Source: Bradyrhizobium lupini
GTDB taxonomy: Bacteria; Pseudomonadota; Alphaproteobacteria; Rhizobiales; Xanthobacteraceae
DNA length: 64,000 nt
Reading direction: 5' to 3'
Assembly: GCF_040939785.1 (NCBI RefSeq)
Contig: NZ_CP162553.1
Coordinates: 5,165,001-5,229,000 of the forward strand
Both the position numbers and the translations under genes were made by a program. The notes beneath the pieces are model-generated. The model did not search any database. It worked only from the letters and a program-made list of their open reading frames with translations, and was not told the DNA's origin. Shown one piece after another: positions 5,054 through 57,864 of this stretch; positions within the stretch are counted from its first letter, which is position 1; each line of letters opens with the position of its first letter.

Positions 5054-6995
5054 TTAATTCGACTTCGCGCCTTCCTTGGCGTTCTCCGCCGTCGGCGCTT
5101 CGGCCGGTGCGGGACGTTTTCCGGTGCCGGTGATGCGCTCGATCGCGGAGCGCACCGCGTCGCCCGGCTTGCGGTCTTTCAGCATGTCGAGCAAGGGCGC
5201 AGAGGCCGGCGAGCGGCGGATCAGGCTTTCCGGATCGGGAAACACCAGGGGGTCGTCCCAGGGGCCCTGCACCACGAAGGGCAATTCGAACCCCGACGCG
5301 CTGTTGAGGCTGGCCACGCCCTTCATGTCGTATTCGCGCGTCGGCACCGAGGCGGTGCCGGTCATCGTGATCTTCGCCGCAGGTCCTTCGACGCGGATGT
5401 CCTCGGCGGTGGCGACGCCGTCGGAGAACTTCACCGCGATGGTGAGATTGTCGTAAGGGGTAGAGCCGTTGCGAAAATTGCCGCCGCCGGACAGCGGCCG
5501 CCGCTCGAGCCGCTTCAGGAGCTGCTCGGCATTGAAGCCCGCGATCGCGCCGTCATGCCCGGTCACGTTGGCGCTGCCGTCGAGCGACTGCACGAGGCCG
5601 AACGGGCTCGAGCCGGACGCGAGGAGCGAGACGTTGATGTTGCCGCGCCCGGACAGCTTGTTGATGCCGAACAGCTCGGAGGCGCAGGCCTGAAGGTCGA
5701 CGTCGGTGAACTGGAATTGCGCCTTGATGTCGGCGACGGTGTCGGAGCGCGCGATGCCGAACGAGCCCTTGGCGATGCCGCCATAAACCTGGGCCTCGCC
5801 GACCGAGAGCGCCAGCGTGCCGTTGCGCAGATCTCGCGCCGATCGCGGTGCGGCCAAGTTTCGATGCCCCGACCGTCAGCTTGGCGGCCGACAGGCGCAT
5901 GTCGAGGTCGGTGGTCGACAAGGCGTTGAGATCGAACAGCTGCCTGTTCCAGTCGCGCGCGCCGCTCGCGAGCAGGCGGAAAGTCGAGATATAGGGGGTG
6001 AAGTCGAGCGCGTCGGCTGCGAGCGTCGCCTGCAGCGTCTGCCGGCCGTTATTGGCGTAGGTCATCACGCCCTCGGCGGTGTTGCCGTCGAGCTCGACAT
6101 TGACGTTGGTGAGCGCGATCGACGCGCCGACGACATTGGCCCGCGCCTTCAGCGCGAAGCGGCCGAAGCCGCCGCTGGCGGGCTGCGGCTGGCCGGTCCA
6201 GCGTAGCGCGTTGCGCAGGGACGGGCTGTCGATGGTGAGCGTGCCCTCCATCATCGGGCTGGTGCGGTTGGCGACGCTGCCGTCGAAGGCGAGCTTGAGC
6301 GGTGCGCTCGCGATCCGCGCCTTCAACCCCGAGCGCTCGCCGGAGAGGGCGGCGACGAAATCGGAAAAGCTGATCGAGCCGTCGACCCGTTCGCCCCGCC
6401 AGTCGAATTGTCCGGTCGCGGCGAAGGAGCGCGAGATCGAGGGCCAGGCCAGCGACAGGTCGATGTCCTCGAGCTTCTCGGTGCCGTGCGTGGCAGCGTC
6501 CTCGTAATTGAGCACGCCGTCCTGGATCCGGATCTCGGAGAACGACACTTGATTCTCGGCGCCAGGCTTCATGGTGCGCGCGATGGTCTGGATGAACGGT
6601 GTCCAGTTGCTTTCACCGTCCGGCTTCAGGCTGACATGGATGCGCGGCCGCAGCAGCGTCAGGTCGGCGATCTCGAACCGTTGCAGCAGCAGCGGCAGCA
6701 GCCGCAGGTTCGCGGTGAGCACGTCGACATGGAGCGCCGGATCACTGGTGCCGCCGCCCTTCAGGCCGACGTCATGGAAGGAGATGTAGCTTGCCGGCAG
6801 CACCGAAATGTCGATCGCGCCTGCGACGTTGACCTCGAGCCCGGTGACGTCGCGGATCTGCGTTTCCACGGCCTTGCGCAGTGCGTCGCGGTTGATGAGC
6901 CATGAGGTCGCGATCAGGGCGATCAGCGCCACGCCGAGCAGCGCCGCGATCGGCGTCCCGAGGCGCTTCATTCCTTGGGCCATGGTCAATGGCAT
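5054..6995 (-). pseudogene. AsmA family protein, interrupted by a +1 frameshift
   Basis: The intact product would be about 646 residues: an N-terminal membrane anchor (about residues 9-30), an AsmA N-terminal domain ('ALRKAVETQIRDVTGLEVNVAG'-like start), and a C-terminal AsmA-like domain. AsmA proteins act in the envelope and are linked to lipid transport and outer-membrane assembly. The frame is lost near 5830-5836. Upstream reads '...SKLGRTAIGA' and the homologous continuation 'DLRNGTLALSVGEAQVYGG' lies in another frame. Removing one A from GCGAGATCTG restores a continuous 'AIGADLRNGT'. Both halves are otherwise well preserved, so this may be a sequencing error rather than a dead gene. The start could also be the ATG at 6983. 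Confidence 0.8.
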
Positions 6996-7272
6996 GTCCT
7001 GATCGAGTTGGTCGCTGGAGCCAGAAGGCGGGCCGGGAAACCTGCGCGCCCCACGCCCAAGACCTATTGTGTTAAGTGCCGCAACTTGATGGGTTTTCTT
7101 GTCGCTTTCAAGGCCGCGGGAACGGTTGCGCCCACGGCTTGGGCAGCTTCTATCACCCAGGGGCGGAGCGGAGAACCCCGTATCATTGACGGCTTCGGAC
7201 GATTTCGCCTAATAATCGCCGCCACTAAGGCGCGACGCCTGCAAGCCGAAGGTTCACTCGAAGGTAATTTGC

Positions 7273-7980
7273 ATGAACAAGGTCTATCCCGACGCCAAGT
7301 CGGCTCTCGAGGGCGTTCTGAAAGACGGCATGATGATCATGTCGGGCGGCTTCGGCCTCTGCGGCATCGCCGAGACGCTGTCGGACGCGATCCGCGACTC
7401 CGGCGTCAAGGACCTGACGGTGGTCTCAAACAATGCCGGCGTCGACGGCATTGGCCTCAGCCGCCTGCTCGAAACCCGCCAGATCAAGAAGATGATCTCG
7501 TCCTATGTCGGGGAGAACAAGCTGTTCGCCCAGCAATTCCTCGCCGGCGAGCTGGAACTCGAATTCAATCCGCAGGGCACGCTGGCCGAGCGCATCCGCG
7601 CGGGCGGCGCCGGCATTCCGGCCTTCTACACCAAGACCGGCGTCGGCACGCTGATCGCCGAAGGCAAGGAAGTGAAAGAATTCGACGGACAGAAATACCT
7701 GATGGAGCGCGGCCTGTTCGCCGACCTCGCCATCGTCCACGCCTGGAAGGGCGACACCGCAGGTAACCTCATCTATCGCAAGACCGCGCGCAACTTTAAC
7801 CCGATGATGGCGACCGCCGCCAAGGTCACGGTGGCCGAGGTCGAGCATCTGGTTCCGGCCGGCGAACTCAATCCCGACCACATCCACACGCCCGGTCTTT
7901 TCGTCAAGCGCATCGTCGAGGTCGGAACGGCCAAGAAGCGCATCGAATTCCGCAACACCCGCCCGCGCACGGCAGCTTGA
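7273..7980 (+). CDS. scoA: 3-oxoacid (succinyl-CoA-type) CoA-transferase, subunit A
   Basis: A 235-residue alpha subunit of a family I CoA-transferase, which moves CoA from succinyl-CoA to acetoacetate or a related 3-oxoacid. The subunit A signature 'GGFGLCG' is at residues 25-31. Other conserved stretches are 'VVSNNAGVDG' and 'RIRAGGAGIPAFYTKTG'. The partner subunit follows after 15 bases, as expected for the two-gene form. The likely role is ketone-body or polyhydroxybutyrate-derived acetoacetate use; a role in beta-ketoadipate degradation (PcaIJ) is less likely without pca neighbours. The 277-base gap upstream (6996-7272) is a divergent intergenic region with no gene visible. Confidence 0.92.
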   Translation: MNKVYPDAKSALEGVLKDGMMIMSGGFGLCGIAETLSDAIRDSGVKDLTVVSNNAGVDGIGLSRLLETRQIKKMISSYVGENKLFAQQFLAGELELEFNPQGTLAERIRAGGAGIPAFYTKTGVGTLIAEGKEVKEFDGQKYLMERGLFADLAIVHAWKGDTAGNLIYRKTARNFNPMMATAAKVTVAEVEHLVPAGELNPDHIHTPGLFVKRIVEVGTAKKRIEFRNTRPRTAA

Positions 7981-7995
7981 GATCAGGAGACTAAG

Positions 7996-8646
7996 ATGGC
8001 CTGGACCCGTGAACAGATGGCTGCGCGCGCCGCGAAGGAACTGCGTGACGGCTATTACGTCAATCTCGGCATCGGCATCCCGACGCTGGTCTCGAACTAC
8101 ATCCCGGACGGCATGGACGTCAGCCTTCAGAGCGAGAACGGCATGCTCGGCATGGGCCCGTTCCCGTACGAGGGCGAAGAGGACGCCGATCTCATCAACG
8201 CCGGCAAGCAGACCGTGAGCGAACTGCCGTCGACCTCGTATTTCTCGAGCGCGGATTCCTTCGGCATGATCCGTGGCGGCCACATGGATCTGTCGATCCT
8301 CGGCGCCATGCAGGTGGCCCAGAACGGCGATCTCGCCAACTGGATGATCCCCGGCAAGATGGTCAAGGGCATGGGCGGCGCGATGGATCTCGTCGCCGGC
8401 GTCAAGCGCGTGGTCGTGGTGATGGAGCATTCGGCCAAGGACGGTCCAAAGCTCCTGAAGCAGTGCAATTTGCCGCTGACCGGCGAGCGCGTGGTCGACA
8501 TGGTCGTGACTGACCTGGCCGTCTTCACCATCGACAAGCACGGCAGCGGCGGCATGGCGCTGATCGAGCTCGCCGACGGCGTCTCGCTCGACGAGGTCAA
8601 GGCCAAGACCGAGGCCGAATTTCGCGTCGCACTGAAGAACACGTAA
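7996..8646 (+). CDS. scoB: 3-oxoacid (succinyl-CoA-type) CoA-transferase, subunit B
   Basis: A 216-residue beta subunit of the CoA-transferase. The catalytic glutamate is E47 within 'S-E-N-G' (residues 46-49), which forms the covalent glutamyl-CoA intermediate in this family. 'GIGIPTLV' near residue 25 and '[14 protein letters not shown]' near residue 90 are also family-typical. It is preceded by subunit A at 15 bases, with a GGAG-type ribosome site in the gap. The two subunits form the active heterotetramer in the cytoplasm. Confidence 0.93.
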
Positions 8647-8668
8647 AGTTTTCGCGAAGGGGGCGCGC

Positions 8669-9304
8669 ATGACGATACGGTCTGCGCGTCCCGAAGACGC
8701 CGATTTCATCGCACAAACCATCCTTTCATCGCAGCGCGGCTACCGGCCGCGTGGCTGGTTCGACGTTGCGCTCGGTTGGCCTGAAACACAGTGCCGCGAT
8801 TTCATCGCGCACGTCGCAGCCGCTCGCGCGGTGTCGATGTGGCACGTCTCGCAATTTCTGGTCGCCGAGATCGATGGCAAGCCTGCTGCCGCCTTGTGTG
8901 CGCTACCGGCGGCCGGCACGGGACCAGCGGCTTGGCGTGCGATCGAGGAAGTCGCAGCCGCGTCCGGACTCGCCGCGGCAGAGCTGGAGGCCATCCGTCA
9001 ACGCGGCGGCTACACCCGCGCCTGCTGGGTTCAGGGCGGCGAGGGCGATTGGATGATCGAGCATGTCGCGACCGATCCCGCCTATCGCGGCCGCGGCCTG
9101 GTGCAGTCACTGATCGCGCATGCGCTGGAGAAGGGGCGAGCGGCTGGATGTGCACGGGCGACAATATCGTTCCTGATCGGCAACGAGCCCGCCGAGCGCG
9201 CTTATACCAAGGCCGGCTTTGTCCTTGCCGAGGAGAAGCGCGATCCTGCCTTCGAGGCGATCATCGGTGCGCCGGGCTTTCGCATGTTTGCGCGGGTGAT
9301 GTGA
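8669..9304 (+). CDS. GNAT family N-acetyltransferase
   Basis: A 211-residue protein with a C-terminal GNAT acetyl-CoA-binding core. Motif A is seen as 'VATDPAYRGRGLVQSLIAHA' near residues 130-150, with the R-G-R-G pyrophosphate loop, followed by 'NEPAERAYTKAGF' (motif B). The N-terminal half is less conserved and probably sets the acceptor specificity, which cannot be inferred. It starts 22 bases after scoB and could be read from the same transcript. It ends 13 bases before the convergent AraC gene. Confidence 0.82.
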   Translation: MTIRSARPEDADFIAQTILSSQRGYRPRGWFDVALGWPETQCRDFIAHVAAARAVSMWHVSQFLVAEIDGKPAAALCALPAAGTGPAAWRAIEEVAAASGLAAAELEAIRQRGGYTRACWVQGGEGDWMIEHVATDPAYRGRGLVQSLIAHALEKGRAAGCARATISFLIGNEPAERAYTKAGFVLAEEKRDPAFEAIIGAPGFRMFARVM

Positions 9305-9317
9305 TCGGTCTTGAAAA

Positions 9318-10334
9318 TCAAGCCGCGGTTGCCGCCAATGGCCGGGCGCCTTTGCGCCATGCGGTGATGGTGCAGCCGAAATGGCCGCGAAACCAGCGGG
9401 CCATGGCGCTCTGTGCGGAGAAGCCGAGCTGCACGGCGATGTCGGCCAGCGGCCGGCCGGGGTCGTCGATGAGCTGGACCACGAGATCGGCGCGCTGCGC
9501 GTCGAGAATGGCCGAGAAGCTGGTGCCGGCTTCGGCGAGGTGGCGGTGGATGGTGCGCCGGGTGCAGGCGAGGTGTTCGGCGACGCGCTCGACCGTGCAG
9601 CCGCCGCCGGCGAGCAGGAGACGCACGACCTCGTCGACCTTCTCCTCCCAGCTTGCCGGCCGCGTCTCGATCGCCTCGATCCGCTTGCGCAGATAGCTCG
9701 CGATCAGCGGATGCGCGCTCGGGATCCGGCGCTCCATGTCGTGTGCCGACAACAGGATCGAATCGGCCTCCGCATTGAAGGTCACACGGCAGCCGTAGAA
9801 CTCGCGGTAGCGCTTGCGGTCGTGCGGCGGCGGGTAATGCAGGTGCACTTCCTGCGGCCGCCAATCGCTGCCGAACAGCGACTGGATGATGCGGTGGACG
9901 CTGCCGAGCGCCATGTCGATCGACTGGCGCGGCGCGGCCGGCTGCCGGCCGCGCAGGTGCAGCGTGACGCTGACGGTCTGCTTGTCGCGGGTGACGTCCA
10001 GCTTCATGCCGTCGTGATGGATCGGGATGAAGCGCGAGAAGGCTTCGATGGCTTCACCAACGGTCGCCTGTTCGCGCACGATCAGGCCGACCGCGCCGAA
10101 ATTGGTCAGCCCGCCGCGTTCAGCAAGCCGCAACCCGAAATCTTCGGCTCCGGACGCCTCGGCCGACAATTCGAGCAGACGTCGCAGGCTTGTGACGGCA
10201 ATGGGTGTATCGGGCTTGTCGAGGCAGGCCAGCGGCAGCCTGACCTTGCGCATCATGTGTTTGGGGTCGAGCCCGACCGACCGGGCGACCTCCAGGTAAT
10301 AGCTCAAGCCCGCGCTACGAATGAGGTCGGTCAT
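9318..10334 (-). CDS. AraC family transcriptional regulator
   Basis: A 338-residue regulator. The C-terminal 100 residues form the double helix-turn-helix of the AraC/XylS family. The first helix pair is near 'TVERVAEHLACTRRTIHRHL' and the second near 'PLADIAVQLGFSAQSAMARWF', where the usual S-x-F-x-R-x-F pattern is partly kept as 'SAMARWFRGHFG'. The N-terminal 200 residues match the arabinose-binding-like domain of the OruR/ArgR-type subgroup. The target genes are not clear: it is divergent from the response-regulator gene and convergent with the acetyltransferase. Confidence 0.85.
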   Translation of the reverse strand: MTDLIRSAGLSYYLEVARSVGLDPKHMMRKVRLPLACLDKPDTPIAVTSLRRLLELSAEASGAEDFGLRLAERGGLTNFGAVGLIVREQATVGEAIEAFSRFIPIHHDGMKLDVTRDKQTVSVTLHLRGRQPAAPRQSIDMALGSVHRIIQSLFGSDWRPQEVHLHYPPPHDRKRYREFYGCRVTFNAEADSILLSAHDMERRIPSAHPLIASYLRKRIEAIETRPASWEEKVDEVVRLLLAGGGCTVERVAEHLACTRRTIHRHLAEAGTSFSAILDAQRADLVVQLIDDPGRPLADIAVQLGFSAQSAMARWFRGHFGCTITAWRKGARPLAATAA

Positions 10335-10536
10335 GCGCCCCGTTCCTGCCAGCCGTCCCGCCGATGTCCCGAAATGTAAAGTTTCTGTCCCGATCGGTCA
10401 AATCCGGGAACAGGGTGGAACATACATAAGTGAAACCGAAGCACGGGCGTGAGTGCTGTGCAAATGACGGCGCGGCGCGACGAGGCCCCGCTGCCGTCTC
10501 GGACCATTTGACCCAAGACATTGCTGGATCGGAATT

Positions 10537-11157: not shown

Positions 11158-11307
11158 GCGCTCCGTCGCGGGCCTTGCTGCCGCCGCGGCGGCGCCCCAC
11201 GGAAACCCCAATCGAACCAGTTCCTTCCCTGCCGCGTCCAACCATGTTGGCGAGGCATTGGATCGCGCGTCCGGCTGGCGGCGGCGATGACTTGGAGGAG
11301 GGACTTG

Positions 11308-12984: not shown

Positions 12985-13034
12985 TGTGCGGCGCCGAGGT
13001 GCGAGTTGTCTTTACCTCGTGCTCGCTCACTGTC

Positions 13035-13156
13035 CGTCATGTCCCGCCTAGTGCGCAGTTACGCACGAGGGCGGGGCATCTAGTACGCCGCGGCCTCACG
13101 ATTTGATCGCTGGCGCCGCGGCGTACTGGATCGCCCGGTCGAGCCGGGCGATGACC
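13035..13156. repeat. Dispersed palindromic intergenic repeat
   Basis: The intergenic stretch between two convergent genes holds two strong dyads: AGTACGCCGCGGC pairs with GCCGCGGCGTACT (13082-13094 and 13115-13127), and CGCCCGG pairs with CCGGGCG around 13132-13150. A CGTCATG-like edge lies at about 13037. The structure fits the palindromic repeat elements common between rhizobial genes. It may also end transcription from both sides. Confidence 0.55.
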
Positions 13157-14616: not shown

Positions 14617-15513
14617 CTACTCCTTGACCGCGCCCGTCAGCGACGACACGTAGTAATCGACGAACAGCGAGTAGAAGATCGCAACCGGCAGCGAGCCGAG
14701 CAGCGAGCCCGCCATCAGCGCGCCCCACTGATAGACGTCGCCGGTGACGAGCTCGGTCAGGATCGCGACCGGCACCGTCTTGTTGGCGCCGCTCTGGATA
14801 AAGGCGAGCGCGTAGATGAACTCGTTCCAGGACAGCGTGAAGGAGAAGATGCCGGCCGAGATCAGGCCGGGCACCGCCAGCGGCAGCGTGATCCGTCGCA
14901 GGATCTGGAGCCTGGTGGCGCCGTCCACCAGCGCGCATTCCTCGAGCTCGTAGGGGATCGACTTGAAATAGCCGATCAGGAGCCAGGTGCAGAACGGCAC
15001 CAGGAAGGTCGGGTAGACCAGGATCAACGCAAGCGGGCTGTCGAACAGGCCGAACTGCACGACCACGGTCGCGAGCGGAATGAACAGGATCGACGGCGGC
15101 ACGAGATAGGCCATGTAAATGCCGAGGCCGACATAGGGACTGCCGCGGAAGCGCAGGCGCTCGATCGCATAGGCGGCCAGCGTGCTCGCGATCAGCGACA
15201 GCGTAGTCGCCCCGACCGCGACCAGCATCGTCGTCCACAGCCAGCGCGGATAGGCGGTGTCGAACAACAGGTGCTTGATGTGGGCCAGCGTCGGCGAGGA
15301 GATCCAGAACGGGTTGTGCTCCTTGTAGTTCATCAGCTCTGCGTTCGGCTTGAACGACGTGATCGTCATCCAGTAGAACGGAAATAGGAGGATCAGCACG
15401 AAGCAGCCGAGCGGCAGATAGATCATCATCAGCCGCCGCAGCCCGGAATCCCAGGCCATGGTGTCCGGCGGCGTGGTGGCGACGGCGGCCGGCTCGGCGG
15501 CGGTATCAGTCAT
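14617..15513 (-). CDS. Carbohydrate ABC transporter permease (MalG-like), second importer
   Basis: A 298-residue permease with six membrane segments. The coupling loop 'LEECALVDGATRLQILRRI' is near residue 195 and the protein ends in 'VSSLTGAVKE', as in MalG-type proteins. The ATG at 15513 overlaps the end of the upstream permease by eight bases and has GGGAGAGAG in front. It is the last gene of the dehydrogenase-binding protein-permease-permease cluster. As in the first importer, no ATPase is encoded nearby. Confidence 0.9.
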   Translation of the reverse strand: MTDTAAEPAAVATTPPDTMAWDSGLRRLMMIYLPLGCFVLILLFPFYWMTITSFKPNAELMNYKEHNPFWISSPTLAHIKHLLFDTAYPRWLWTTMLVAVGATTLSLIASTLAAYAIERLRFRGSPYVGLGIYMAYLVPPSILFIPLATVVVQFGLFDSPLALILVYPTFLVPFCTWLLIGYFKSIPYELEECALVDGATRLQILRRITLPLAVPGLISAGIFSFTLSWNEFIYALAFIQSGANKTVPVAILTELVTGDVYQWGALMAGSLLGSLPVAIFYSLFVDYYVSSLTGAVKE

Positions 15514-16461
15514 TGCTCTCTCCCTGCTGCCATTTGCGGCGCGCCAGGCCGAAATAAGAGAACAGCGTTGCGAACACGAGGAACGGGATCATCGACACCG
15601 CAATCGCCGCGCCCTCGCCGAGCTCGCCGCCCGCAATGCCGCGCTGGAAGGCCAGCGTTGCCAGCAAATGGGTTGAGTTGCCGGGGCCGCCCCGGGTGAT
15701 GGCGTAGACCAGCTGGAAATCGGTGAAGGTGAAGATGATCGAGAAGGTCATGACGATCGCGAGGATCGGCATCATCATCGGGAAGGTGATGTAGCGGAAC
15801 CGCTGCCAGGCGCTGGCGCCATCGAGCATCGCGGCTTCGTAGAGCGAGGGCGAAATGGTCTGCAGGCCCGCCAGCAGCGAGATCGCGACGAAGGGAATGC
15901 CGCGCCAGATATTGGCGGCGATCAGCGAGAAGCGCGCCGGCCAGGGCGAGCCGAGGAAGTCGATATTGGTGGTGCGCCAGTGCAGCACGTCGACCAGAAG
16001 GTAGGAGATGATCGAGAACTGCGGATCGTAGATCCACCAGAACGCCAGCGCCGAGAGCACCGTCGGCACGATCCAAGGCATCAGGATGATCGCACGCAAC
16101 AGGCTCTTGAACGGAAAATGGTTGTTGAGCAGCAGTGCGAGCCAGAAGCCGAGCGCGAACTTTCCAAAGGTCGCGATCCCCGTGTAGACCACGCTGTAGA
16201 ACACCGCGTTCCACCACAGGAATCGGTGAGCAGATACTGGAAATTCTCGAAGCCGACGAAGACGCCTTTTCTGCCGATTGTCGTGTCGGTGAAGGCGAGC
16301 CAGATGCCGAGGCCGAGCGGATAGGTCAGGAACACCGTGAGCAGCCCGATCGCAGGTGCGAGGCACATCACGATCAGGAACGGCTTGTAGTCGAACAGGC
16401 GCACCAGCCAGGAGGGTTGCCGGTGCACGAGGGCTGGAGAAGAGAGTGTGGTCACGGACAT
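15506..16461 (-). pseudogene. Carbohydrate ABC transporter permease (MalF-like), interrupted by a -1 frameshift
   Basis: A continuous reading would give about 318 residues beginning 'MSVTTLSSPALVHRQ' at the ATG at 16461. The first frame covers the N-terminal membrane segment and 'VGFENFQYLLTDS', then leaves the family. The rest, from 'LWWNAVFYSVVYTGIATFGK', including the coupling loop 'LYEAAMLDGASAWQRF', is in another frame. The break lies in GATTCCTG (complement of 16217-16224). One missing C would give 'T-D-S-L-W-W-N'. All other parts look functional and the downstream partner is intact, so a consensus error is likely. If real, the importer would be dead. Confidence 0.85.
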
Positions 16462-25323: not shown

Positions 25324-27915
<2,592 letters not shown>

Positions 27916-27952: not shown

Positions 27953-29577
27953 ATGGCTGATTACTACCCGCTGATCGCCCGCGCTATTGCCGCCCTGGAC
28001 CCCAACGCTCCCGGCGAGAGCCGTCGCGCGCTCTATGAGCGGGCGCGCACGGCGCTGATCGCGCAGCTCCGCAGCGTGCAGCCGCCGCTCTCGGAATCGA
28101 GATCACCCGCGAGCGCCTCTCGCTGGAAGAGGCCGTCCGCAAGGTCGAATCAGAGGCGGCCCAGCGTGCCCGCGAGGCCTCGCGCCCCGCTGGCGGCGCC
28201 CGCAGCAGCGGCAGCCGCGACGCCTTCCGCCGCGCCAGCACCCGCGCCACCGAGGGCAACTCGCCCGCGCCGCAAACGGCTGCCCCGCCGCGCACCCGTC
28301 CGGCTCCGCCGCCGCCGCGGGCTGACCGGCCCTCCTTCAATGTCGATGACCAGGGCGACGCCCCGCGTGCGCCGCGGGCCCCGCGTTTCGACGCGCCGCG
28401 GCAGCCGGGTCCGCCGGCCCCGTCGTCGATGCCGGAGCCTCCGCCGGTCGGACGTGATCGCGCTGGTGGGCGCCGTCCGCCGGACATGGGACCGCCACCG
28501 CCGCTGCCGCCCGCACCGGGCGTGCGCGGCTTCCGCGACATCACGGCGGACGCCAACGAGCTCGGCGGCGCCGCCGCGCAGGCCAACCGCGCGGCGCGCC
28601 GCACCTACGCCAACGTGCCCTCGCCCTCGCCGGAATTCGACCGGCTCGAGCCGAGCCTGGAGAATCGCGGCGCCGGAGCCGACGCGCCGTATTCCTACGA
28701 CGAATCGATCGAGGAAGCTGAGCGCTACGCGCCGCCGTCGCAGCCGCCGTCGCAACGTCCGCACATCCCCGTTCTCGACCGCGAACCCAAGAAGAAGCGC
28801 GCCCGCACCGGCCGCGCCTTTCCGTTCAAGAGCGCGATCGCCGTCGGCATCGTGCTGATCCTGGTCGGTGCCGGCATCCTGTGGGGCAAGCAGCTGGTCC
28901 AGACCGCGACCAACCTGTTGAAGTCTTCGCCGACGCAGGTGGTGGAGGCGCCCAAGGATTCGTCTCAGCCGCAGAGCAAGCCCAAGATTCCGGATCGCGT
29001 CGGCCAGCCCTCGGCCAGCGACCAGCCGGTCGCGCCGGTGGCGCAGAAAGTCGTGCTCTACGACGAGGATCCATCCGATCCGAAGGGCAAGCAATATGTC
29101 GGCTCGGTGGTGTGGCGGCTCGAGCCGATCAAGGCGTCGGGCAATCAGAAGGCCGACGTCGCCGTGCGCGCCGACATCGAGATTCCCGACCGCAAGTTCA
29201 AGATGACGATGTCGTTCCGCCGCAACACCGACTCCTCGCTGCCGGCGAGCCACACCGCGGAGCTGACCTTCGTCCTGCCGCCGGACTTTCCGGGCGGCGG
29301 CGTTTCCAACGTGCCGGGCATCCTGATGAAGTCGAACGAGCAGGCACGCGGCACGCCGCTCGCAGGCCTCGCGGTCAAGGTCACCGACGGCTTCTTCCTG
29401 GTCGGCCTCTCCAACGTCGATGCCGACCGCAGCCGCAACGTCCAGCTGCTGAAGGAGCGCTCCTGGTTCGACGTGCCCTTGGTCTACGCCAACCAGCGCC
29501 GCGCCATCATCGCCATCGAGAAGGGCGCTCCCGGCGAGCGCGCCTTCAACGACGCCTTCGCGCAGTGGGGCGACTAG
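27953..29577 (+). pseudogene. Conserved single-pass membrane protein, interrupted by a -1 frameshift
   Basis: A continuous reading gives about 541 residues. The parts are: a conserved N-terminus ('ADYYPLIARAIAALDPNAPG'), a long proline/arginine-rich disordered region, a membrane segment near residues 295-315 ('IAVGIVLILVGAGILW'), and a C-terminal beta-rich domain ending 'FNDAFAQWGD'. The frame breaks near 28098-28100: upstream reads '...VQPPLSES', and 'EITRERLSLEEAVRKVE' continues in the +2 frame. One missing base in TCGGAATCGAG explains it. The protein has no characterised homologue known to me. Its place directly after purA suggests co-transcription only. Confidence 0.75.
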
Positions 29578-33250: not shown

Positions 33251-33956
33251 TCAGTTGGTGGCCTTGCTGGCGCTCACCAGCGTCGGCTTCTCGATATAGT
33301 TATCCGCGAACAGCTTTTTTCAGGTTCTCGACCTTCGGAAGGTCGTTGTAGGCGATATAGGGCTGGTTCGGGTGCAGGGTCAGATAATCCTGGTGATAGG
33401 CCTCCGCCGGATAGAATGCCTCCAGCGCGCCGACCTTGGTCGCGATCGGCTTGCTGAAGACCTTGGCGCCGTTGAGCTGGGCGATATAGGCCTCGGCCAC
33501 CTTCTTCTGTTCGTCGGACGTGATGAAGATCGCCGAGCGATATTGCGGACCGGTGTCGGGGCCCTGCCGGTTGAGCTGGGTCGGGTCGTGCGCCACCGAG
33601 AAGTAGATCTGCAGGATCTTGCCGTAGGAGATCTTCTTGGGGTCGTATTTGATCTCGACGGATTCCGCGTGGCCGGTCCGGCCGCTCGAGACGGTCTGGT
33701 AGTCGGCCGTCGCCTTGGTGCCGCCGGCGTAGCCGGAGACCGCGTTGACGACGCCCGCGGTGTGCTGGAACACGCCCTGCACGCCCCAGAAGCAGCCGCC
33801 GGCGATCACGGCGGTCTGGATCCCGCTTGCGGGGGCCACATCAACGGCAGGAGCGGGGATCACGACCGCATCCTCTGCGGCCCGGGTTGGCGCGGCAAAG
33901 GCCAGCGTCAGGGCGGTGGTTGCGGCGAGCAGGGACAGGACGGCAGGTCGGCGCAT
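33251..33956 (-). pseudogene. msrA: Exported peptide-methionine (S)-S-oxide reductase, C-terminus frameshifted
   Basis: The intact protein would be about 234 residues with an N-terminal signal peptide (about 1-27, ending 'APTRAAED'). The catalytic cysteine is C55 in 'GGCFWG', and 'TGHAESVEIKYDP' and 'GPQYRSAIF' are present. Near the end an A6 run (AAAAAA, complement of 33312-33317) shifts the frame: the printed reading stops as 'LKKAVRG', whereas with A5 it continues 'LKKLFADNYIEKPTLVSA' to the TGA at 33251. The active site is upstream, so even the shifted protein might function. A homopolymer miscall is likely. Confidence 0.9.
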
Positions 33957-34202
33957 GGCGATCCTCTTTCGGAAGGTCTGACAGTCTAGGGCGGTTGGGG
34001 CCGGGCGAACAGCCTGCCCGGCATTTTCGGACATTCGAGATACGGGCGGACCGGGCGATTGTTACGGCCGGAGGGACACGAGTCCGTGAAACGCGCCGCC
34101 TCCAGCGGCCCGGCTTGGCGACGACCGGAACTCCGCGCTAGATGAACCGGCGCGATCGGTGATCGACTTAAAGAGAATCGTGGCTGGAGCTGACCTGACA
34201 AC

Positions 34203-35900
34203 ATGCTGCGCGTGGCATCCCTGACCCTCGTCGTCGTGCTCGCCATCCTGGCCGGCTGGAGCTCGCTCGCGGCGGCCGAACCGCAACCCGGCGACGACCT
34301 CGCCATTTGCCGCGACCGCCAGGCGGATGCACAGGCGAGGGCGCAGGCCTGCGACAAGCTGCTCAACGCCGACCGGCTCACCGGCAAGGACAAGGCCATC
34401 GCGCTCTCCGTGCGCGGTAACACACTGCTCAACAAGCGCGACTACGGCCACGCCATCGAGACCTTGTCCATGGCCGTCGACCTCGATCCCGACAACGTCG
34501 TCACGCTCAATTTGCGCGGCCTCGCCTATGAGCGGACGGGCCAGGACGATCATGCGATGGCGGACTACGACCTCGCGCTCCAGAAGCGCCCGACCTACGG
34601 TGTCCCCTACAACAACCGCGGCGTCATCCAGTTGCGCCGGGGTGCGCTGCAAAGCGCGCTCGACGATTTCAACCTGTCGATCAAATACGCGCCCAGGTTC
34701 CTGCTCGGCTACACCAACCGCGCCCGCGTGCGCACGCTGATGCAGGATTTTGACGGCGCGATTGCCGATTTCGCGGAGGCCGAGAAGATCGAACCGGCCG
34801 CGCAGCAGATCACCGGCAACCGCTGCATCACCTACGGCATGATGGGCAAGTTCGACCAGGCCTTCGCCGACTGCAACGGCCTAATCGAGAAGCAGCCGAA
34901 GAACACGTACGCGATCAACAATCGCGCCGACGTCAACATGTTGAAGGGCGATTTCGACGCCGCGCTGAAGGACTACAACACGGCCATCCAGATCAACCCG
35001 AACAACGTCCGGGCACATTCAGGTCGCGGCCAGATCTACGAGCGCAAGAAGGATCTCGCCCAGGCCCGTGCCGACTATCGTGCGGCGGCCTATTCGCTGA
35101 CGAAGTTCGACGAGCTCGACGTCGCGCGCGCCCGCGCGATCGCGCAGGAGCGATTGGCCGCGCTGACCCCGCAGGCACCGGCCGGATCCACGGGGCGCCG
35201 TGTGGCGCTGGTGATCGGGAACGGCGCCTACAAGAACGTCCACGCCTTGCCCAATCCGCCACGCGACTCGAAAATGATCGCAGCCGCGCTGCGCGATGTC
35301 GGCTTCCAGACCGTGATATCCGTCAGCGACCTCACCCGCGACAAGTTCTTCGAAGCGTTGCAGACGTTTGCCGCCGAGGCGGAGAAGGCGGATTGGGCGG
35401 TGGTCTATTATGCCGGCCACGGGTTCGAGATCGGCGGCGTGAATTATCTCGTTCCCGTCGACGCCAAGCTCGCCGCCGACAGGGACGCCGAGACCCAGGC
35501 GGTCGCGCTGGAGCAGGTGATCGCGGCGGTGGGCGCTGCGCGAAAAGTGCGTCTGGTGATGCTGGATGCCTGTCGCGACAATCCGTTCGCGCCGACCATG
35601 CAGCGCACGCTGTCGCTCAAGCTCGTGGACAAGGGCTTTTCCAACATCGAGCCGGGCGCCGGCTTCATGGTGGTCTACGCCGCCAAGCACGGCGAGACCG
35701 CGATGGATGGCGACGGCGGCGCCGACAGCCCGTTCGCCACCGCGCTCGCTCGCGAGATCAAGATGCCGCGCGTCGAGATCCGAAAACTGTTCGACATCGT
35801 TCGCGACGATGTCTGGCTTGTGACCAAGCACGAGCAGCAGCCGTTTTCCTACGGCTCGCCGCCGGGGCGCGAGGATTTTTATTTCGTCGCGGGGAAGTGA
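34203..35900 (+). CDS. TPR-caspase (C14 peptidase-like) protein
   Basis: A 565-residue exported protein. The signal peptide spans about residues 1-24. Six or so tetratricopeptide repeats follow at about 65-300, for example 'NLRGLAYERTGQDDHAMADYD' and 'NRADVNMLKGDFDAALKDYN'. The C-terminal caspase-like domain starts at 'RRVALVIGNGAYKNV' near 332. The catalytic pair is H406 in 'YYAGHGFE' and C457 in 'LDACRDNPF'. This is the bacterial orthocaspase/metacaspase-like architecture. Its targets are unknown; the TPRs suggest partner binding. It is a single gene with no evident operon partner, followed by a dispersed repeat. Confidence 0.9.
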   Translation: MLRVASLTLVVVLAILAGWSSLAAAEPQPGDDLAICRDRQADAQARAQACDKLLNADRLTGKDKAIALSVRGNTLLNKRDYGHAIETLSMAVDLDPDNVVTLNLRGLAYERTGQDDHAMADYDLALQKRPTYGVPYNNRGVIQLRRGALQSALDDFNLSIKYAPRFLLGYTNRARVRTLMQDFDGAIADFAEAEKIEPAAQQITGNRCITYGMMGKFDQAFADCNGLIEKQPKNTYAINNRADVNMLKGDFDAALKDYNTAIQINPNNVRAHSGRGQIYERKKDLAQARADYRAAAYSLTKFDELDVARARAIAQERLAALTPQAPAGSTGRRVALVIGNGAYKNVHALPNPPRDSKMIAAALRDVGFQTVISVSDLTRDKFFEALQTFAAEAEKADWAVVYYAGHGFEIGGVNYLVPVDAKLAADRDAETQAVALEQVIAAVGAARKVRLVMLDACRDNPFAPTMQRTLSLKLVDKGFSNIEPGAGFMVVYAAKHGETAMDGDGGADSPFATALAREIKMPRVEIRKLFDIVRDDVWLVTKHEQQPFSYGSPPGREDFYFVAGK

Positions 35901-37199: not shown

Positions 37200-37853
37200 C
37201 TATTGCCAGCCGGGAACGCCGCGCATGTCGGGCAGATGGTGGGCGATGCCCTTGTGGCAGTCGATGCAGGTCTTTTCCTTGGTGAACAGGAAGCGCTGGT
37301 GCGCGACCGAGGCGCGCGGCGACTGCTTGGTGATGTCCATGGAATCGGCGCTGTGGCAGTTCCGGCATTCCAGCGAATCGTTGGACTTGAAGCGCGCCCA
37401 TTCATGCGCCGCCAGTTCGAGCCGGTGATCCTGGAATTTCTCGCGGGTGTCGATCGTGCCGAAGATCTTGCCCCAGACCTCCTTGGAGGCCTGCATCTTG
37501 CGGGCGATCTTGTCGGTCCAGTTGTGCGGCACGTGGCAATCCGGACAGGTCGCGCGCACGCCGGAGCGGTTGGCGAAATGGATGGTCGACTTCAGCTCGG
37601 CGAAGACGTTGTCCTTCATCTCGTGGCAGCCGGTGCAAAATTTTTCGGTGTTGGTCAATTCCAGCGCGGTGTTGAAGCCGCCCCAGAAGATCACGCCGGC
37701 CATGAAGCCCGCCAGCACCAGCACGCCGAGCCCGAACACCGAGCTCGGACGGATCAGCACCTGCCAGAGCTCGCGCGCGAAGTCCCAGCTTCGCGCGACG
37801 AAGCCGCGTCTGGCCTTCAGTCCCTCGCCGGGTTCATCAGCGGTCGTCGTCAT
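37200..37853 (-). CDS. napC: Tetraheme cytochrome c NapC
   Basis: A 217-residue NapC/NirT-family quinol dehydrogenase. One N-terminal membrane anchor (about residues 35-55, '[19 protein letters not shown]') is followed by four C-x-x-C-H haem motifs: 'CTGCH', 'CPDCH', 'CRNCH' and 'CIDCH'. NapC passes electrons from ubiquinol to the periplasmic nitrate reductase NapAB. The ATG at 37853 overlaps the napB stop as ATGA. The usual upstream genes napE, napD and napA are not present, because the region before napB is replaced at a joint near 38,150. Confidence 0.94.
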
Positions 37854-38191
37854 CGGCGGCCACCGGGGCTTGCGCGCGACAGCAGCGTGTCGATGTCGGT
37901 GAAGTCGTTGCTGACGGGCGGATTGGCGGTGTTCTGCGGCACGTGGCATTCCGTGCAGAAGAAGCGGCGCGGCGAGATCGAAGCCAGAAACTGGCCGTCG
38001 CGGTCCATGAAGTGGGTGATCGAGACCATCGGCGCCTGCGATTCCGCGATGCGCGCCCGCGCATGGCAGGACAGGCACTTGTTGCCGTTGAGGTCGATCT
38101 GATAGCCGTCGATCGTGTGCGGGATCACCGGCGGCTGCTCCGGATAGTTGCGCACGGGTTGGCCGATCCTGTTCACGCCCATGTACTTCAT
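37850..38191 (-). CDS. napB: Diheme cytochrome c NapB, 5'-truncated
   Basis: Encodes the conserved part of NapB, the small electron-transfer subunit of periplasmic nitrate reductase. From '[18 protein letters not shown]' on it matches the family, with both haem motifs 'CLSCH' and 'CTECH' and 'SPRRFFC'. NapB should have about 50-60 more N-terminal residues, including a signal peptide. Here an ATG at 38191 opens the frame, but the codons before 'VRN' ('[12 protein letters not shown]') are not family-like, and their complement reads as an acyltransferase. I infer that the true gene is cut at about 38,150-38,160. Without a signal peptide the product would not be exported. Confidence 0.85.
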
Positions 38192-39072
38192 CGCGATCTG
38201 GGCGTCTCATTTCCCGAACGGCGGCTGGTCCCGCAGCTGGCCACCGGTGCTGCCGAATTTCCCCCCTGACCCATCTCTGGTTCATCTATGTGCTGCTGGA
38301 GCTTTATGTCGTCGTGCTGCTGCTGCGCGGCGCATTTGTCTGGCTAGATGCGTCAGGCAGGTGGCGAGCGGTGATTGACCGCGTCTTCGCCGGGATCATG
38401 AAAAGTCCGCTGGCCCCCCTTGTTCTGGCAATCCCGATCGGCGCCGCCTTCTGCCTCGACCAACGCTGGATCAACGTGACGGGCGTGAGGACGCCGGATC
38501 AATCGCTCGTCACCAACGCGCAGGCCTGGATTGGCTTCGGCACCGCCTTCGCGATCGGCTGGCTGCTGCATCGGCAGATCGATCTGCTGCGACTGATTGA
38601 GCGGCGCTGGCTCCCGCATCTTCTGCTCGCAATCACTCTGATCCTGATCAGTTTCGTGCTGGTTGGGGCGATGACGTCCGCGCCGGGGGCACTGAAACTG
38701 CCTTTCGGCTTCGCCACGCTCCGGCTTGTCTCCGTGATCCTGTATGCGCCGGCGATATGGATTTCGACCTTTGCGGTCATCGGCCTCGCGCTCCGCTTCA
38801 TGTCCGGCTTCAGCCCGACCTGGCGCTATCTCGCCGATGCATCCTACTGGGTCTATCTGATCCACCTGCCGATCGTGATGGCGCTGCAGGTCGCGCTGTC
38901 GCAGCTCGACTGGCCCGGTCTGATCAAGTTCGGTGTTCTTCTCGTCGTCGCGCTTCCTCCGATGCTGGCGAGCTATCATCTGCTGGTGCGCTTCACCTTC
39001 ATCGGCGTGGTCCTGAATGGCCGCCGCGCCGAAAAGCACCTTCTCCCGCAAGGCGGAATTGCGACTGCGTAG
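38150..39072 (+). pseudogene. Acyltransferase family (OpgC/acyltransferase-3-like) membrane protein, 5'-truncated and frameshifted
   Basis: The C-terminal two-thirds of a multi-pass membrane acyltransferase. The frame from about 38,150 reads '[16 protein letters not shown]' and '...PPVLPNFP'. It is then broken in a C6 run at 38263-38268. With C5 it would continue '[14 protein letters not shown]', a family hallmark (H-L-W-F). From the GTG at 38290 a 260-residue remainder stays open, with seven to eight membrane segments and 'ASYWVYLIHLPIVMALQ' near its end. The N-terminal part with the catalytic His is missing. It is fused back to back with truncated napB. Confidence 0.75.
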
Positions 39073-49874: not shown

Positions 49875-49889
49875 GCGGAGTGCGGGCGA

Positions 49890-51038: not shown

Positions 51039-51203
51039 GTTGACCCTCGCGTGGTTCTCACGCGGGCTTATAGGGCCTGGCGCCGGTGTGACCTAGTCGG
51101 AGAACGCGGTGCGGCCATGTCGCCGGTCCACGGAATTGGACGCACCGTGCCTTCCACGTCGTCCCGGCTTTCGCCAGAACGAAGTTGAGCGTGTGGCAAC
51201 CGG

Positions 51204-52454
51204 CTAACGCCTCGGCTCCGCCATCGCTTCCACGCCGCGAAGCTGCGTGGCGACGGTCAGCGCGCCGATCTTCCGGCCCATCTCCTTGCCGATCTCGGTC
51301 GAGAACCGATAGTGAAAGCCGGCCCAGATACGGGCGTTGGAGACTTCGTCGCTATAGTCCTGGAGCCGCGTCCATTTGCGGGTGACGCCTGGTGCCGTGG
51401 GGCTGGTCACCGAGAACTCGCCGAAATCTCCAACGATGGTCTGGAGCACGGTCGAAATCGCTGCCGACGTAATGCAGTGAGCACAGGGATATTCCGGATG
51501 CATCGGCGTGTCCCCCAGCGGCAGCCAAGATGCGTCGCGAGGCGTCGCTGCGTTCGATGTCAGGTCGGCGTTGCGTATGGCCGTGATCGGCCGCCAGAAA
51601 TTGTAGTGGTACTTCGCGTCGAAAACGGCGACGAAGGCGTCGTTGCCGGCAATTGAGGTCAGCGCGTACAGCCGGGCGCAGTCGACGAGATCCATGCCCT
51701 TGGCCGTTGCCGCCTGCCTCACGATCGGATTGTAGGTGCGGGCACCGACAAAGAACCAAAATCGACCGACCGTGGTTTGCTCGGGCGTCCGGATCACACT
51801 TGTTCGGCTGCCGACCTCGCGGATTTCGTTGACGTCCCGGGTCCACAGCTCTGAACCGAGCGCCGGCGGCGGGCCGGGGCGATACTGAGATCCGGACGTC
51901 ATGACCCAGGGCGTCGTCGCGCCCGCGATCGAGAACAGCGGGACGGTCGTCGGAACGTAGGCACCCGCCGTTGTCAGGGGCCGGTAAGTTTCAAGGGCGG
52001 CGCTGCCATCGTTCTCACGAAGCGCGATGATCTGCATCGCGGCCTCCTTGCCGAGGCCGATGCCCGCGATCTTGGACTCGCCGTCGGCGATCGGCACCAG
52101 AGAACTCGTCAGCGCCGCATCCAGCTCCGGCTTGAGGTCCGGATAGAGCGACAGCAGCACGTCGTGAGCCGCAACTGCGGCCGCAGCTTCCCGCGACGTC
52201 GAACGATCCGCGGATAGGGCAAGCTTGTAAGGCGCGTACCGGCGATCGATCGCGTTGACCGCCTCGAACATCGCGACGTGCATCATAGACAAGGCACGGC
52301 TGTGGGGCGCTGGAAGGATTTGCTTTTCAGTGGCGATCGCGTCGGCCTTTGCATTCCAATCCATGATCACGTCGGCGCGCGCAAGCGGCGCCGACGCTGC
52401 GAGCAGCGTTACAATCAATGAGAGGCGGAAGATGGTCCACGACGAGTTCTTCAT
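51204..52454 (-). CDS. Exported vanadium-haloperoxidase-related (PAP2-like) protein
   Basis: 416 residues. The signal peptide is about residues 1-28, ending 'APLARADV'. Three vanadate/phosphate-site blocks are recognisable: K and R-P in 'KYHYNFWRPITAIRN', a block at 'HPEYPCAHCITSAA', and 'ARIWAGFHYRFSTEIG' holding the catalytic His. The middle block is normally P-S-G-H and here is P-C-A-H-C. It belongs to a group of bacterial proteins near haloperoxidases whose activity is unproven. Single gene. Confidence 0.83.
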   Translation of the reverse strand: MKNSSWTIFRLSLIVTLLAASAPLARADVIMDWNAKADAIATEKQILPAPHSRALSMMHVAMFEAVNAIDRRYAPYKLALSADRSTSREAAAAVAAHDVLLSLYPDLKPELDAALTSSLVPIADGESKIAGIGLGKEAAMQIIALRENDGSAALETYRPLTTAGAYVPTTVPLFSIAGATTPWVMTSGSQYRPGPPPALGSELWTRDVNEIREVGSRTSVIRTPEQTTVGRFWFFVGARTYNPIVRQAATAKGMDLVDCARLYALTSIAGNDAFVAVFDAKYHYNFWRPITAIRNADLTSNAATPRDASWLPLGDTPMHPEYPCAHCITSAAISTVLQTIVGDFGEFSVTSPTAPGVTRKWTRLQDYSDEVSNARIWAGFHYRFSTEIGKEMGRKIGALTVATQLRGVEAMAEPRR

Positions 52455-52685
52455 GGGATGCCCTTTCGATGTAAAGGACGTTTCGCGAGACCAATGCGGC
52501 TCTGCCCGACATCACGTCGCGCGGCTCGAGGACTTTAACCATCTTGTTGTGGTTTGATTGTGAACTGCTTCACGCGGCGGAAGAGTAGCTCCGAATGGGT
52601 CGGCGTGGCTTACCGTTCGCACTGAGTAATGGATCCTGACTTTCGCCGGAAGCCACGGATTGTGGTGACTGCTTTGCGTTCTTCT

Positions 52686-52718
52686 CAAAGAAAAATGCCC
52701 GGGACCAGCCCGGGCATT
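52686..52718 (-). terminator. Intrinsic terminator after flbD
   Basis: On the minus strand AATGCCCGGG pairs with CCCGGGCATT around a CTGGT loop and is followed by TTTTCTT. It lies 27 bases after the flbD stop and ends the fliF-flbD operon. The remainder of the gap 52455-52744 shows no gene. Confidence 0.85.
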
Positions 52719-52744
52719 CGTTTCTCTCAGTCAGCGTAGAGCGC

Positions 52745-54130
<1,386 letters not shown>

Positions 54131-54174
54131 GTCAGTCTCCTGTCCGTCTGGTCGCGCTGCCGCGCGTCGTCGCT

Positions 54175-54525
54175 TTAGGCGCGTTCAGCCTTGATGATTT
54201 CAGTCATGGTCACGCCGAGCTTGTCCTCCACCAGCACGACTTCGCCGCGGGCGACCAGCTTGTTGTTGACGTAGATGTCGATGGCCTCGCCGACGCGCCG
54301 GTCGAGCTCGAGCACGGTCCCGGGTCCGAGCTTCAACAGCTCGCTGACGTCCATCTTGGAGCGGCCGAGCACGGCCGAGACCTGCACCGGTACATCGAAT
54401 ACGGCCTCGAGGTCGGCGGCGGCGCGCGTCGCGTATTCGTCCTCGTTGTAGCCGACGTCGGTGCCGGCAGGCGGCATCGGGCCGTTGAGATCGGGCAGCG
54501 GGACCTGTCCGTCAGTGTCGCTCAT
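54175..54525 (-). CDS. fliN: Flagellar motor switch protein FliN
   Basis: 116 residues. The SpoA-type C-terminal domain is clear: 'VPVQVSAVLGRSKMDVSELL' and 'GTVLELDRRVGEAIDIYVNN' then 'ARGEVVLVEDKLGVTMTEI'. The N-terminus is short and acidic. FliN builds the C-ring with FliM and FliG at the cytoplasmic face of the motor. It sits between fliH and flbD, as in the Caulobacter fliF operon. Confidence 0.95.
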   Translation of the reverse strand: MSDTDGQVPLPDLNGPMPPAGTDVGYNEDEYATRAAADLEAVFDVPVQVSAVLGRSKMDVSELLKLGPGTVLELDRRVGEAIDIYVNNKLVARGEVVLVEDKLGVTMTEIIKAERA

Positions 54526-54528
54526 GAT

Positions 54529-55149
54529 TTAACTCCCCCTGCGGGACGCAACGTAGCGACCCACCATTTCGTCGATCTTGGCCGCGATGGCGGCGCGCTC
54601 CAGCACGACGCCGCCATCGGCCCATTCGATCCGGCAGTCGCCGGTGGCAATCTCGGGCTCGGCCAGAATCACCAGCCGGCCTTCAAAGCCGTTCTGCCTG
54701 GCCAGCCGCTCGATGTTCTCGCGCGCGGCATCGTAGAGCGCGTCGTTGATGCGGACGACGAGATGCGGCGTCGCGACCAGATGCGAGAAGCAGTCCTTGA
54801 CCAGCGCGACGATCTCGCCGAGCGGCTCGGCGGCGACCAGATCGGCGCACAGCTTGCGCGCCACCGCGACCGCGACGTCGACCGCCTCGGTCTCCATCTT
54901 GGATTCGATGTTGCCGATGCCCGAGGCGATGCCGCGGATCGCGATGTTGATCTCTTCCATGGCGAGCGCGACACGGCGGTCGCTCTCGGCCTTGGCCTCG
55001 CGCTGGCCGGCGGCGAAGCCGTCCTGATAGGCGCGCGCCTCGGCTTCCGCCACCTTCTGGGCGATCTCGGCTGCGGTTGCGGCCTTCTCGCGCGTCCGGT
55101 CGGGCGCGGCGAAGTCGTTGTCGAACAGGAATTTTGCCGGGGCGGCCAT
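54529..55149 (-). CDS. fliH: Flagellar export ATPase regulator FliH (FlbE)
   Basis: 206 residues. An N-terminal alanine/glutamate-rich region (about 20-70, 'AEARAYQDGFAAGQREAKAE') is a predicted coiled coil, and the C-terminal half ('DLVAAEPLGEIVALVKDCF', 'CRIEWADGGVVLERAAIAA') fits FliH/FlbE. It restrains the FliI ATPase and links it to the C-ring. In Caulobacter the homologue in this operon position is FlbE. Its start overlaps the fliG stop. Confidence 0.9.
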   Translation of the reverse strand: MAAPAKFLFDNDFAAPDRTREKAATAAEIAQKVAEAEARAYQDGFAAGQREAKAESDRRVALAMEEINIAIRGIASGIGNIESKMETEAVDVAVAVARKLCADLVAAEPLGEIVALVKDCFSHLVATPHLVVRINDALYDAARENIERLARQNGFEGRLVILAEPEIATGDCRIEWADGGVVLERAAIAAKIDEMVGRYVASRRGS

Positions 55150-56240
55150 CAGTACACCAGCTCGTCGTCGGCGCGGTTCTTGGTCAGCATGATCTCGCCC
55201 TTGGCGGCGAGGTCCTTGGCGAGGTTGACCAGCAACGCCTGGGCCTCGTCGACGTCGCGCAGGCGGACCGGACCCATCGCCGCCATGTCGTCCTGGAGCA
55301 TTTTGGCCGCACGCGAGGACATGTTGCCGAAGAAGAAGTTGCGGACGTCCTCATTGGCGCTCTTGAGCGCGACGCCGAGCTTGTCCTTGTCGACGTTGCG
55401 CATCAGGGTCTGGGCGGAGCCGGGATCCAGCTTCACGAGGTCGTCGAAGGTGAACATCAGCGCCTTGATGCGCTCGGCCGATTCGCGATTGTCCTCTTCC
55501 AGCGAGGTGATGAAGCGGGTTTCGGTCTGGCGGTCGAAATTGTTGAAGATTTCCGCCATCACCTCGTGGGCGTCGCGTCGGCGGGTCTGGGACAAATTGG
55601 ACATGAATTCGGTCCGCAGCGTCTTCTCCACGCTCTCGATCACCTCCTTCTGCACCGCCTCCATCTTCAGCATGCGGTTGACGACGTCGAGCGCCAGATC
55701 CTCGGGGAAGATGCCGAGCACGCGGGCGGCGTGTTCCGGCTTCAGCTTCGACAGCACGACCGCGATGGTCTGCGGATATTCGTTCTTGAGGTAGTTGGCG
55801 AGCACCTCTTCCTGCACGTTGGAGAGCTTCTCCCACATGTTTCGGCCGGCGGGGCCGCGGATTTCGTCCATGATGCCGTTGACGCGCTCGGGCGCCAGAT
55901 ATTGCTGGAGCAGCCGCTCGGTGGCGTCGAAATTGCCCATCAGCGCGCCCGAGGCCGACATCCGCGAGACGAATTCGAGCAGCATGTCCTCCACGGTGTC
56001 GACCTCGACGGTGCCGAGCGTCGACATTTCCAGGGAGAGCTGGCGCACCTCGTCGTCGTCGAGCAGCGACCAGATCTTGCCGCCATATTGCTCGCCGAGC
56101 GCCAGCATCAGGATCGCGGCGCGCTTCGGCCCCGCCACCGCTTCGGTCTTCGCGCCTCCGCGGCTGCCCGCACGCTGACCGAGCGTGGAGATCACGCTGG
56201 TGATGTCGTTGGAATTGGCGTTTTGCAGGGCGGCGGCCAT
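55149..56240 (-). CDS. fliG: Flagellar motor switch protein FliG
   Basis: 363 residues, slightly long for FliG. The N-terminal domain binds FliF; '[19 protein letters not shown]' starts it. The middle has '[20 protein letters not shown]' and '[20 protein letters not shown]'. The C-terminal torque domain contains '[20 protein letters not shown]' and '[20 protein letters not shown]'. It couples the stator to the rotor. It begins 17 bases after the fliF stop. Confidence 0.96.
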
Positions 56241-56257
56241 ATCAGATCACTTCTCGA

Positions 56258-57864
56258 TTATTTCGTGGGTTCGGTCAGCCATTGGCGGATGATGGCGACG
56301 GTCTCGTTGGGATTGCGCTCGGCGAGTTCGCCGACGCGATGGACGGATTGGGCATGGACCTGGCCCTGGACGGTGGCGACGTCGATCGCGCTCGCGGCGC
56401 CGCTCGGCAAGAGCGCCTGGCTGGCAGGCGCGGCCTCGTCGCTCGCCGGACCGGTGAGGGCGCCGGAGATGGCGGCTGCGACTTCGTCGGATGCCAGGAT
56501 GCGCTTGACCAGCGGCCGGACCACCAGGAACAGCACGACCAGGCCGAGCAGCATCATCACGCCGAGCTCGACGAAGTACATGACGTCGTCCTTGGTGAAC
56601 TGGAGCATGCCGAGTAAGCCGCTCGGCTCGGCGATCAGGGGGTGGAGGGGGCATCGGCAAAGCGCAGATTGACCACCTCGACCTGGTCGCCGCGCTTCTG
56701 ATCGAAGCCGATCGCCGAGCGCACCAGCGTGGCGATGCGGTCGAGCTGCTCCTTGGTGCGGTCCTGGTAGGCCAGATCGCCCTTCTCGTTCTTGGAGTAG
56801 ATGCCGTCGACCAGCACCGCGACCGAGATGCGGTTGACCCGGCCGGCCTCGGTCACTTCGGTCTTGGTGGTGCGGGAGATCTCGTAATTGTTGGTCTCTT
56901 CGCTCTTCTTGCTCTGGTCCTTGGCCGCGACGCCGCCGTTCTGCTGGTTGCCCGGCAACTCGTTGTTGACGGTGACCTGGCCGTTGTTGTCGGCGGTCAT
57001 GCTCTGCTCTTCGCGGGTCTGGCTCGAGCGCAGCACGCGGCCTTCGGGATCGTACTTGTCCGAGGTCTGGGTGACCTTGTTGAAGTCGAAATCGGCGGAG
57101 AGCTGGACCCGGGCGCGTCCCGTGCCCACCACGGAGGAGACGATGTCCTCGACCTGCTTGCGCATCCGCTTCTCGAAGGCGGTGCGGCGCTCGTCGCCGA
57201 TCTGCTGGTCCGGATCGGTCTGGGCGCCGTCGGCGAGCAGCTGCCCGGTCTCGTCGACGATCGAGACCCGCTGCGGCTTCAGCCCGTTCACGGCCGAGGC
57301 GACGAGGTGGCGGATGGCGCGGATCTGCTGGGCTTCCAGCGCGCCGCGGACCCGCACCACGATCGAGGCCGACGGCTCCGGCGCCTCGCGCGAGAACAGC
57401 GGGCGCTCGGGCAGCACCAAATGGACGCGGGCGGCCTGGATGCGGTCGATGGCGCGGATGGTGCGGGCGAGCTCGCCTTCCAGCGCGCGGAGATGGTTGA
57501 TGTTCTGGACGAAAGAGGTGGTGCCGAGCGCATCCGACTTGTCGAACACCTCGTAGCCGACGCCGCCGCCCTTGGGCAGGCCGCCCTCGGCGAGCTTCAT
57601 CCGCAGCCGGGTGACCTTGTCCTTGGGCACCATGATGATGGTGCCCTCGTTGCGCAGCTCGAACTGGATGCCCTGGCGCTCCAGGTCCTTGATGATGCCC
57701 GAGGAGTCCTCGACGCTCAGGTCGGTGAACAGCGTCGTCATCTGCGGCGTGGTGACGCGCATGATGACGAACGCGAAAAAGCCGACGAGCGCGGCGGTGA
57801 CCGCGATCATCGCCCCGAACCGGGCGGCTCCGATACCCTTCAGAAAGTCCGCAAGACCTTGCAA
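56258..57864 (-). pseudogene. fliF: Flagellar MS-ring protein FliF, interrupted by a -1 frameshift in a C run
   Basis: Read continuously the product has about 535 residues. A membrane segment lies near residues 18-38, the YscJ-like ring-building domain is residues 45-230, and a periplasmic part follows. A second membrane segment ('VELGVMMLLGLVVLFLVV') and the C-terminal FliG-binding tail ending 'AIIRQWLTEPTK' complete it. At residue ~407 the printed frame stops at 'RFADAPSTP'. With one more C in the run complementary to 56638-56642 it continues 'LIAEPSGLLGMLQFTKDD'. The rest of the operon is intact, so I suspect a miscalled C6 run. The start is a TTG at 57864. Confidence 0.9.

Follow-up and report, generated by a model that had tools for sequence, protein, structure and literature searches.

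Indels left by long-read sequencing are already described in print as a cause of fragmented genes (extracts of PMC12007338 and PMC8011154), and in the extract of the former pseudogene rates fell from 23.3 to 5.6%. GANTC is described as a cell-cycle motif that Alphaproteobacteria methylate, and errors of nanopore assemblies close to it have been published as well (extracts of PMC12710330 and PMC12392509); in the part of PMC12392509 consulted, most methylated motifs cause no error. The chromosome studied here is a single contig of 7,826,318 bases (7.83 Mb), and the window, that is the whole stretch of DNA that was analysed, covers its bases 5165001-5229000 (64 kb). Its PurA shares 95% identity with that of Bradyrhizobium sp. 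CCBAU 43298 and 88-90% with those of several other Bradyrhizobium. Completeness of the studied genome is 96.81, against 100 for both of the relatives G005 and G008. The first genome sample comprised 18 genomes of the same genus, and the main comparisons were made with G011, G005, G008, G002 and G017, whose long aligned stretches with the window are mostly ~78-93% identical.

A first-pass annotation of the window had described six single-base frame breaks in otherwise intact genes and had favored a wrong consensus over independent decay of these genes. The sequence contains all six breaks, each no more than a few bases from the place given there. They are listed below together with a neighboring gene fragment; HMM refers to a frame-switch model trained on the genes of G005 and G008.

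5054..6995, minus strand: AsmA-family gene, break at ~5832 in a GAGATC context; two open reading frames carry the AsmA halves; HMM call at 5833
15506..16461, minus strand: ABC-type sugar permease, break at ~16220 touching GATTC (GANTC); HMM call
27953..29577, plus strand: gene after purA, neither half with a Pfam match, break at ~28098 touching GAATC (GANTC); HMM call
33251..34034, minus strand: msrA, break at ~33317 in A6, last ~22 residues only
37853..38173, minus strand: napB fragment, residues 49-155, the first 48 residues absent, junction near 38155
38157..39072, plus strand: acyltransferase fragment, first ~100-120 codons absent, break at ~38265 in C6
56258..57864, minus strand: fliF, break at ~56638 beside C5; no HMM call

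Comparison with the same genes in relatives showed that five of these breaks occur in no compared relative covering the site. The AsmA break is absent from all five relatives aligned there as DNA, and the AsmA frame is open over at least 644 codons in 37 of 39 further genomes from this genus, compared with 551 in the studied genome; the two exceptions are G006, which has no ortholog, and G016, whose copy is split over two contigs. Proteins of relatives shift frame at 16220 in the permease (4/4 relatives covering the site), at 33317 in msrA (5/5) and at 56638 in fliF (4/4 covering the site, G005 among them), and the frame of the gene after purA changes at 28098 against five of five relatives, each of which has one frame. 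The 842-codon open reading frame at 25387-27915 was considered as a fusion and rejected, its first 416 codons having no Pfam match and purA being normal. Between msrA and the acyltransferase, a 565-codon gene (34203-35900, plus strand) encodes TPR repeats linked to a peptidase domain of the caspase type (Peptidase_C14).

Runs stand at three of the six sites, as had been noted (A6 in msrA, C6 in the acyltransferase, C5 in fliF). The other three sites contain no run of at least four. GANTC is touched by the break in the permease and by that in the gene after purA, and the AsmA site touches GAGATC, which resembles GANTC but is not GANTC. The run context explains only half of the sites, and the GANTC or GANTC-like context of the others had gone unremarked. 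Five of the six genes (AsmA, the permease, the gene after purA, msrA and fliF) are probably intact in the living bacterium. In msrA no more than the last ~22 residues are affected, and even in the consensus the first frame contains a complete catalytic domain (PMSR 1-151 of 153).

The acyltransferase does not fit the description of an otherwise intact gene. Two frames are present at 38265, but homology to relatives starts only at about codon 104-120, with a sharp junction near window position 38155, and the adjoining block belongs to the nap operon in relatives; in G011, napB and napA occupy the corresponding place. Full-length open reading frames of 407-429 aa are found in four of five relatives, and G018 has only shorter ones. 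No match to NapA above the cut-off was found in the studied genome, and all five relatives searched have one. Partial homology, the nap-operon junction and the absence of napA together indicate that the acyltransferase is a true fragment lacking its 5' part. It borders a deletion, either in the organism or in the assembly, by which napA was lost. The gene is fragmentary whether or not its frame break is a consensus error, and it is the only one of the six in which part of the gene is lost beyond the frame alone, as in a real pseudogene. The expectation that a corrected consensus would make all six genes functional is therefore wrong for this gene.

The breaks of the window are more than chance, and they are not local. 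The HMM, with calls having fewer than 60 bases on either side left out and with L145, which overlaps L154/L155, excluded, found 96 frame switches in 1,320 kb of the studied genome compared with 11 in 1,120 kb of five relatives, a 7.4-fold higher rate; three relatives outside the training set gave 1 switch in 192 kb. At least one call was present in 40 of 59 segments of 20 kb outside the window, versus 9 of 40 control segments. A strict translated comparison of conserved genes served as a second genome-wide test: 22/222 and 15/149 genes (~10%) were broken in the studied genome, against 6/167 and 2/169 (1-4%) between relatives (Fisher P 0.018 and 0.0006), and 5/212 and 3/142 when the studied genome was the query. 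Thus, the breaks are private to the studied assembly and far commoner than in related assemblies, as is expected of consensus errors. A scan for private indels in the DNA of three-way orthologs was noisy, with many calls upstream of true starts, and was superseded by these two tests.

Both tests have limits. The HMM undercounts, because it recovers only four of the six known breaks in the window, and the strict rule is incomplete, the break at 28098 being absent from its list though proteins of relatives show it. Conversely, some HMM calls are not errors: the call at one site recurs in both G005 and G008, and two of the calls in G005 coincide with larger deletions. The shared switch stands at the same sequence in the three genomes (L159:7949, L200:17009, L188:19197); it is probably an ordinary gene overlap and possibly a conserved shift. 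The calls are mildly clumped (variance/mean 1.63 among 20-kb segments). One segment, L134 (980001-1000000 of the studied genome), has 8 calls in 20 kb against a mean of 1.4 and may be poorly covered by reads or genuinely decaying. Estimates of the total number of errors are ~490 when scaled from the HMM less the control rate and ~730 from six per 64 kb; the genome may perhaps contain 500-700 consensus errors.

The sequence context of the calls was tested against random windows drawn from the same coding runs. GANTC had first been suggested by alignments of the breaks and was picked from them beforehand, among 10 sequence patterns tried. In the discovery set (the window, the next 400 kb and the rpo/nuo stretches; 44 calls), 7 calls had GANTC contexts (1.55 expected) and 7 had runs of at least five (0.88 expected). 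Both enrichments were repeated in held-out sequence, the scattered and upstream stretches L132-L151 and L262-L281 (52 calls), with 7 calls at GANTC (1.05 expected) and 9 at such runs (0.71 expected). Pooled, 16 of the 96 calls lie at runs of at least five (~1.6 expected), the homopolymer context typical of consensus errors, and 14 at GANTC (~2.6 expected), the site of the methylase CcrM, which is encoded in this genome (match to CcrMI over residues 22-373 of 376, E 1e-155). The majority of these 96 calls lack both contexts. None of the 8 calls in the four rpo/nuo stretches lies at GANTC, and a narrower signature, GCGAGATC or GCAGAATC, occurred 3 times against 0.15 expected in the discovery set and 0 times in the held-out set. 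Classical undercalling would predict fewer long runs than in relatives, and the homopolymer spectra show no such deficit. CCWGG was also raised at HMM calls (5 against 2.7 expected in the discovery set, 9 against 3.2 in the held-out set); a PF00145 cytosine methylase, a possible source of this signal, has no match in the studied genome, G005 or G008.

We consider it highly probable (about 0.93) that the breaks are errors of the assembled consensus and not mutations of the organism, arising from long reads, probably nanopore, assembled without effective short-read or homology polishing, and that the napA deletion is separate from them. The six breaks in the window are almost certainly, for the most part, such errors. 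Miscounted run lengths would produce the breaks at runs of at least five, and adenine methylation of GANTC by CcrM would disturb the nanopore signal and give rise to the GANTC class. In a separate event, a deletion would have removed napA and left the acyltransferase fragment; this loss may be a real deletion or an assembly fault.

Errors of the consensus might also have come from another platform, such as PacBio CLR or 454, with methylation playing no part. Insertion-like (41) and deletion-like (55) shifts both occur among the 96 calls, and runs are enriched at the breaks, which would suit such a platform. This origin is nevertheless rather unlikely given the GANTC enrichment, repeated in held-out sequence, and the presence of an encoded CcrM; to our knowledge, other sequencing platforms make no errors at m6A sites.

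Much less probable, and in our opinion very improbable, is that the indels are true mutations and the genes real pseudogenes of a decaying or mutator lineage. The window does contain one true lesion, with napA deleted and napB and the acyltransferase truncated, and runs are natural slippage sites; slippage does not, however, predict GANTC. Moreover, the breaks also hit genes that the cell cannot lose, as consensus errors would. rpoC and ftsZ are essential genes. G005 and G008 have rpoC as a single 1416-aa frame; in the studied genome it occupies two frames, with the change after residue 1159. The ftsZ frame is open over 394 codons, versus 625 and 627 in relatives, and the ftsZ of a relative has an alphaproteobacterial C-terminal extension beyond the point where the studied frame ends. 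Two further genes were set aside as evidence: ftsQ shows a second length change beside an apparent 5'-end break (it is still counted among the 22 broken genes), and nuoG has a two-frame match near its end and an HMM call, but the open frames of relatives vary.

Selection also argues against decay. Pooled dN/dS was 0.122 in broken genes (22 genes) and 0.133 in intact genes (205; P 0.89), and 0.103 and 0.115, respectively, with the other relative (P 0.62); dN/dS of the broken genes thus equals that of the intact genes and reveals no relaxed selection. Nor are nonsense mutations raised: among genes intact in the reference and in a third genome, to which the count was limited, they affect 1/110 and 0/122 genes, against 1/103 and 0/111 in controls. 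A first nonsense count (in-frame stops: 20 from G005 to G000 and 2 from G008 to G000, with 12 and 4 in controls) was rejected because doubtful open reading frames had been included. A mutator was likewise rejected, since both mutS and mutL are open, mutS over 916 codons like its counterparts in relatives and mutL over 644 codons (608 and 640 in relatives). The preference of the first-pass annotation for a wrong consensus is therefore strongly supported by the chromosome-wide spread of the breaks, the break in rpoC, the lack of relaxed selection and the lack of a nonsense excess.

Programmed or phase-variable frameshifting, in which slippage of the ribosome or during transcription would bypass real shifts, or a change in run length would switch them, could draw on the three of six window breaks that lie in runs of five or six, but it is scarcely credible: sites and shifts are not common to relatives, the runs are short, half of the six sites in the window lack a run of at least four, and the affected genes are functionally unrelated. 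It is just as implausible that GANTC sites methylated by CcrM are genuine hot spots of indel mutation in this lineage and that frameshift suppression rescues rpoC and other essential genes.

If the breaks are indeed errors of the consensus, several hundred genes are annotated as split or dead though they are whole in the cell, and claims of gene loss and completeness scores drawn from the studied assembly are untrustworthy. Given that the breaks are private and genome-wide, hit rpoC and ftsZ, and occur in genes under normal selection with few nonsense mutations, these genes should therefore not be called dead. The loss of napA, the one lesion of the window that is possibly biological, would otherwise stay masked by artefacts. 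The GANTC class may also serve as a warning, readable from sequence alone, of errors linked to methylation in further assemblies from Alphaproteobacteria.

The artefact is of a known, ordinary kind, here genome-wide and probably in part linked to methylation. As in the long-read indel artefacts presented in the extracts of PMC12007338 and PMC8011154, single-base shifts are scattered across unrelated conserved genes; there they were removed by polishing with reads or homologs, whereas our case is built on relatives, the HMM, selection and essential genes, not on reads. The GANTC class resembles the nanopore errors at methylated motifs treated in the available parts of PMC12710330 and PMC12392509, where errors likewise concentrate at GANTC, the CcrM site, in Alphaproteobacteria. 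In contrast to PMC12710330, where, in the part consulted, the errors are mainly SNPs, the signal here consists of indels and is derived from relatives. In the extract of PMC12392509, no more than two potential errors are linked to GANTC.
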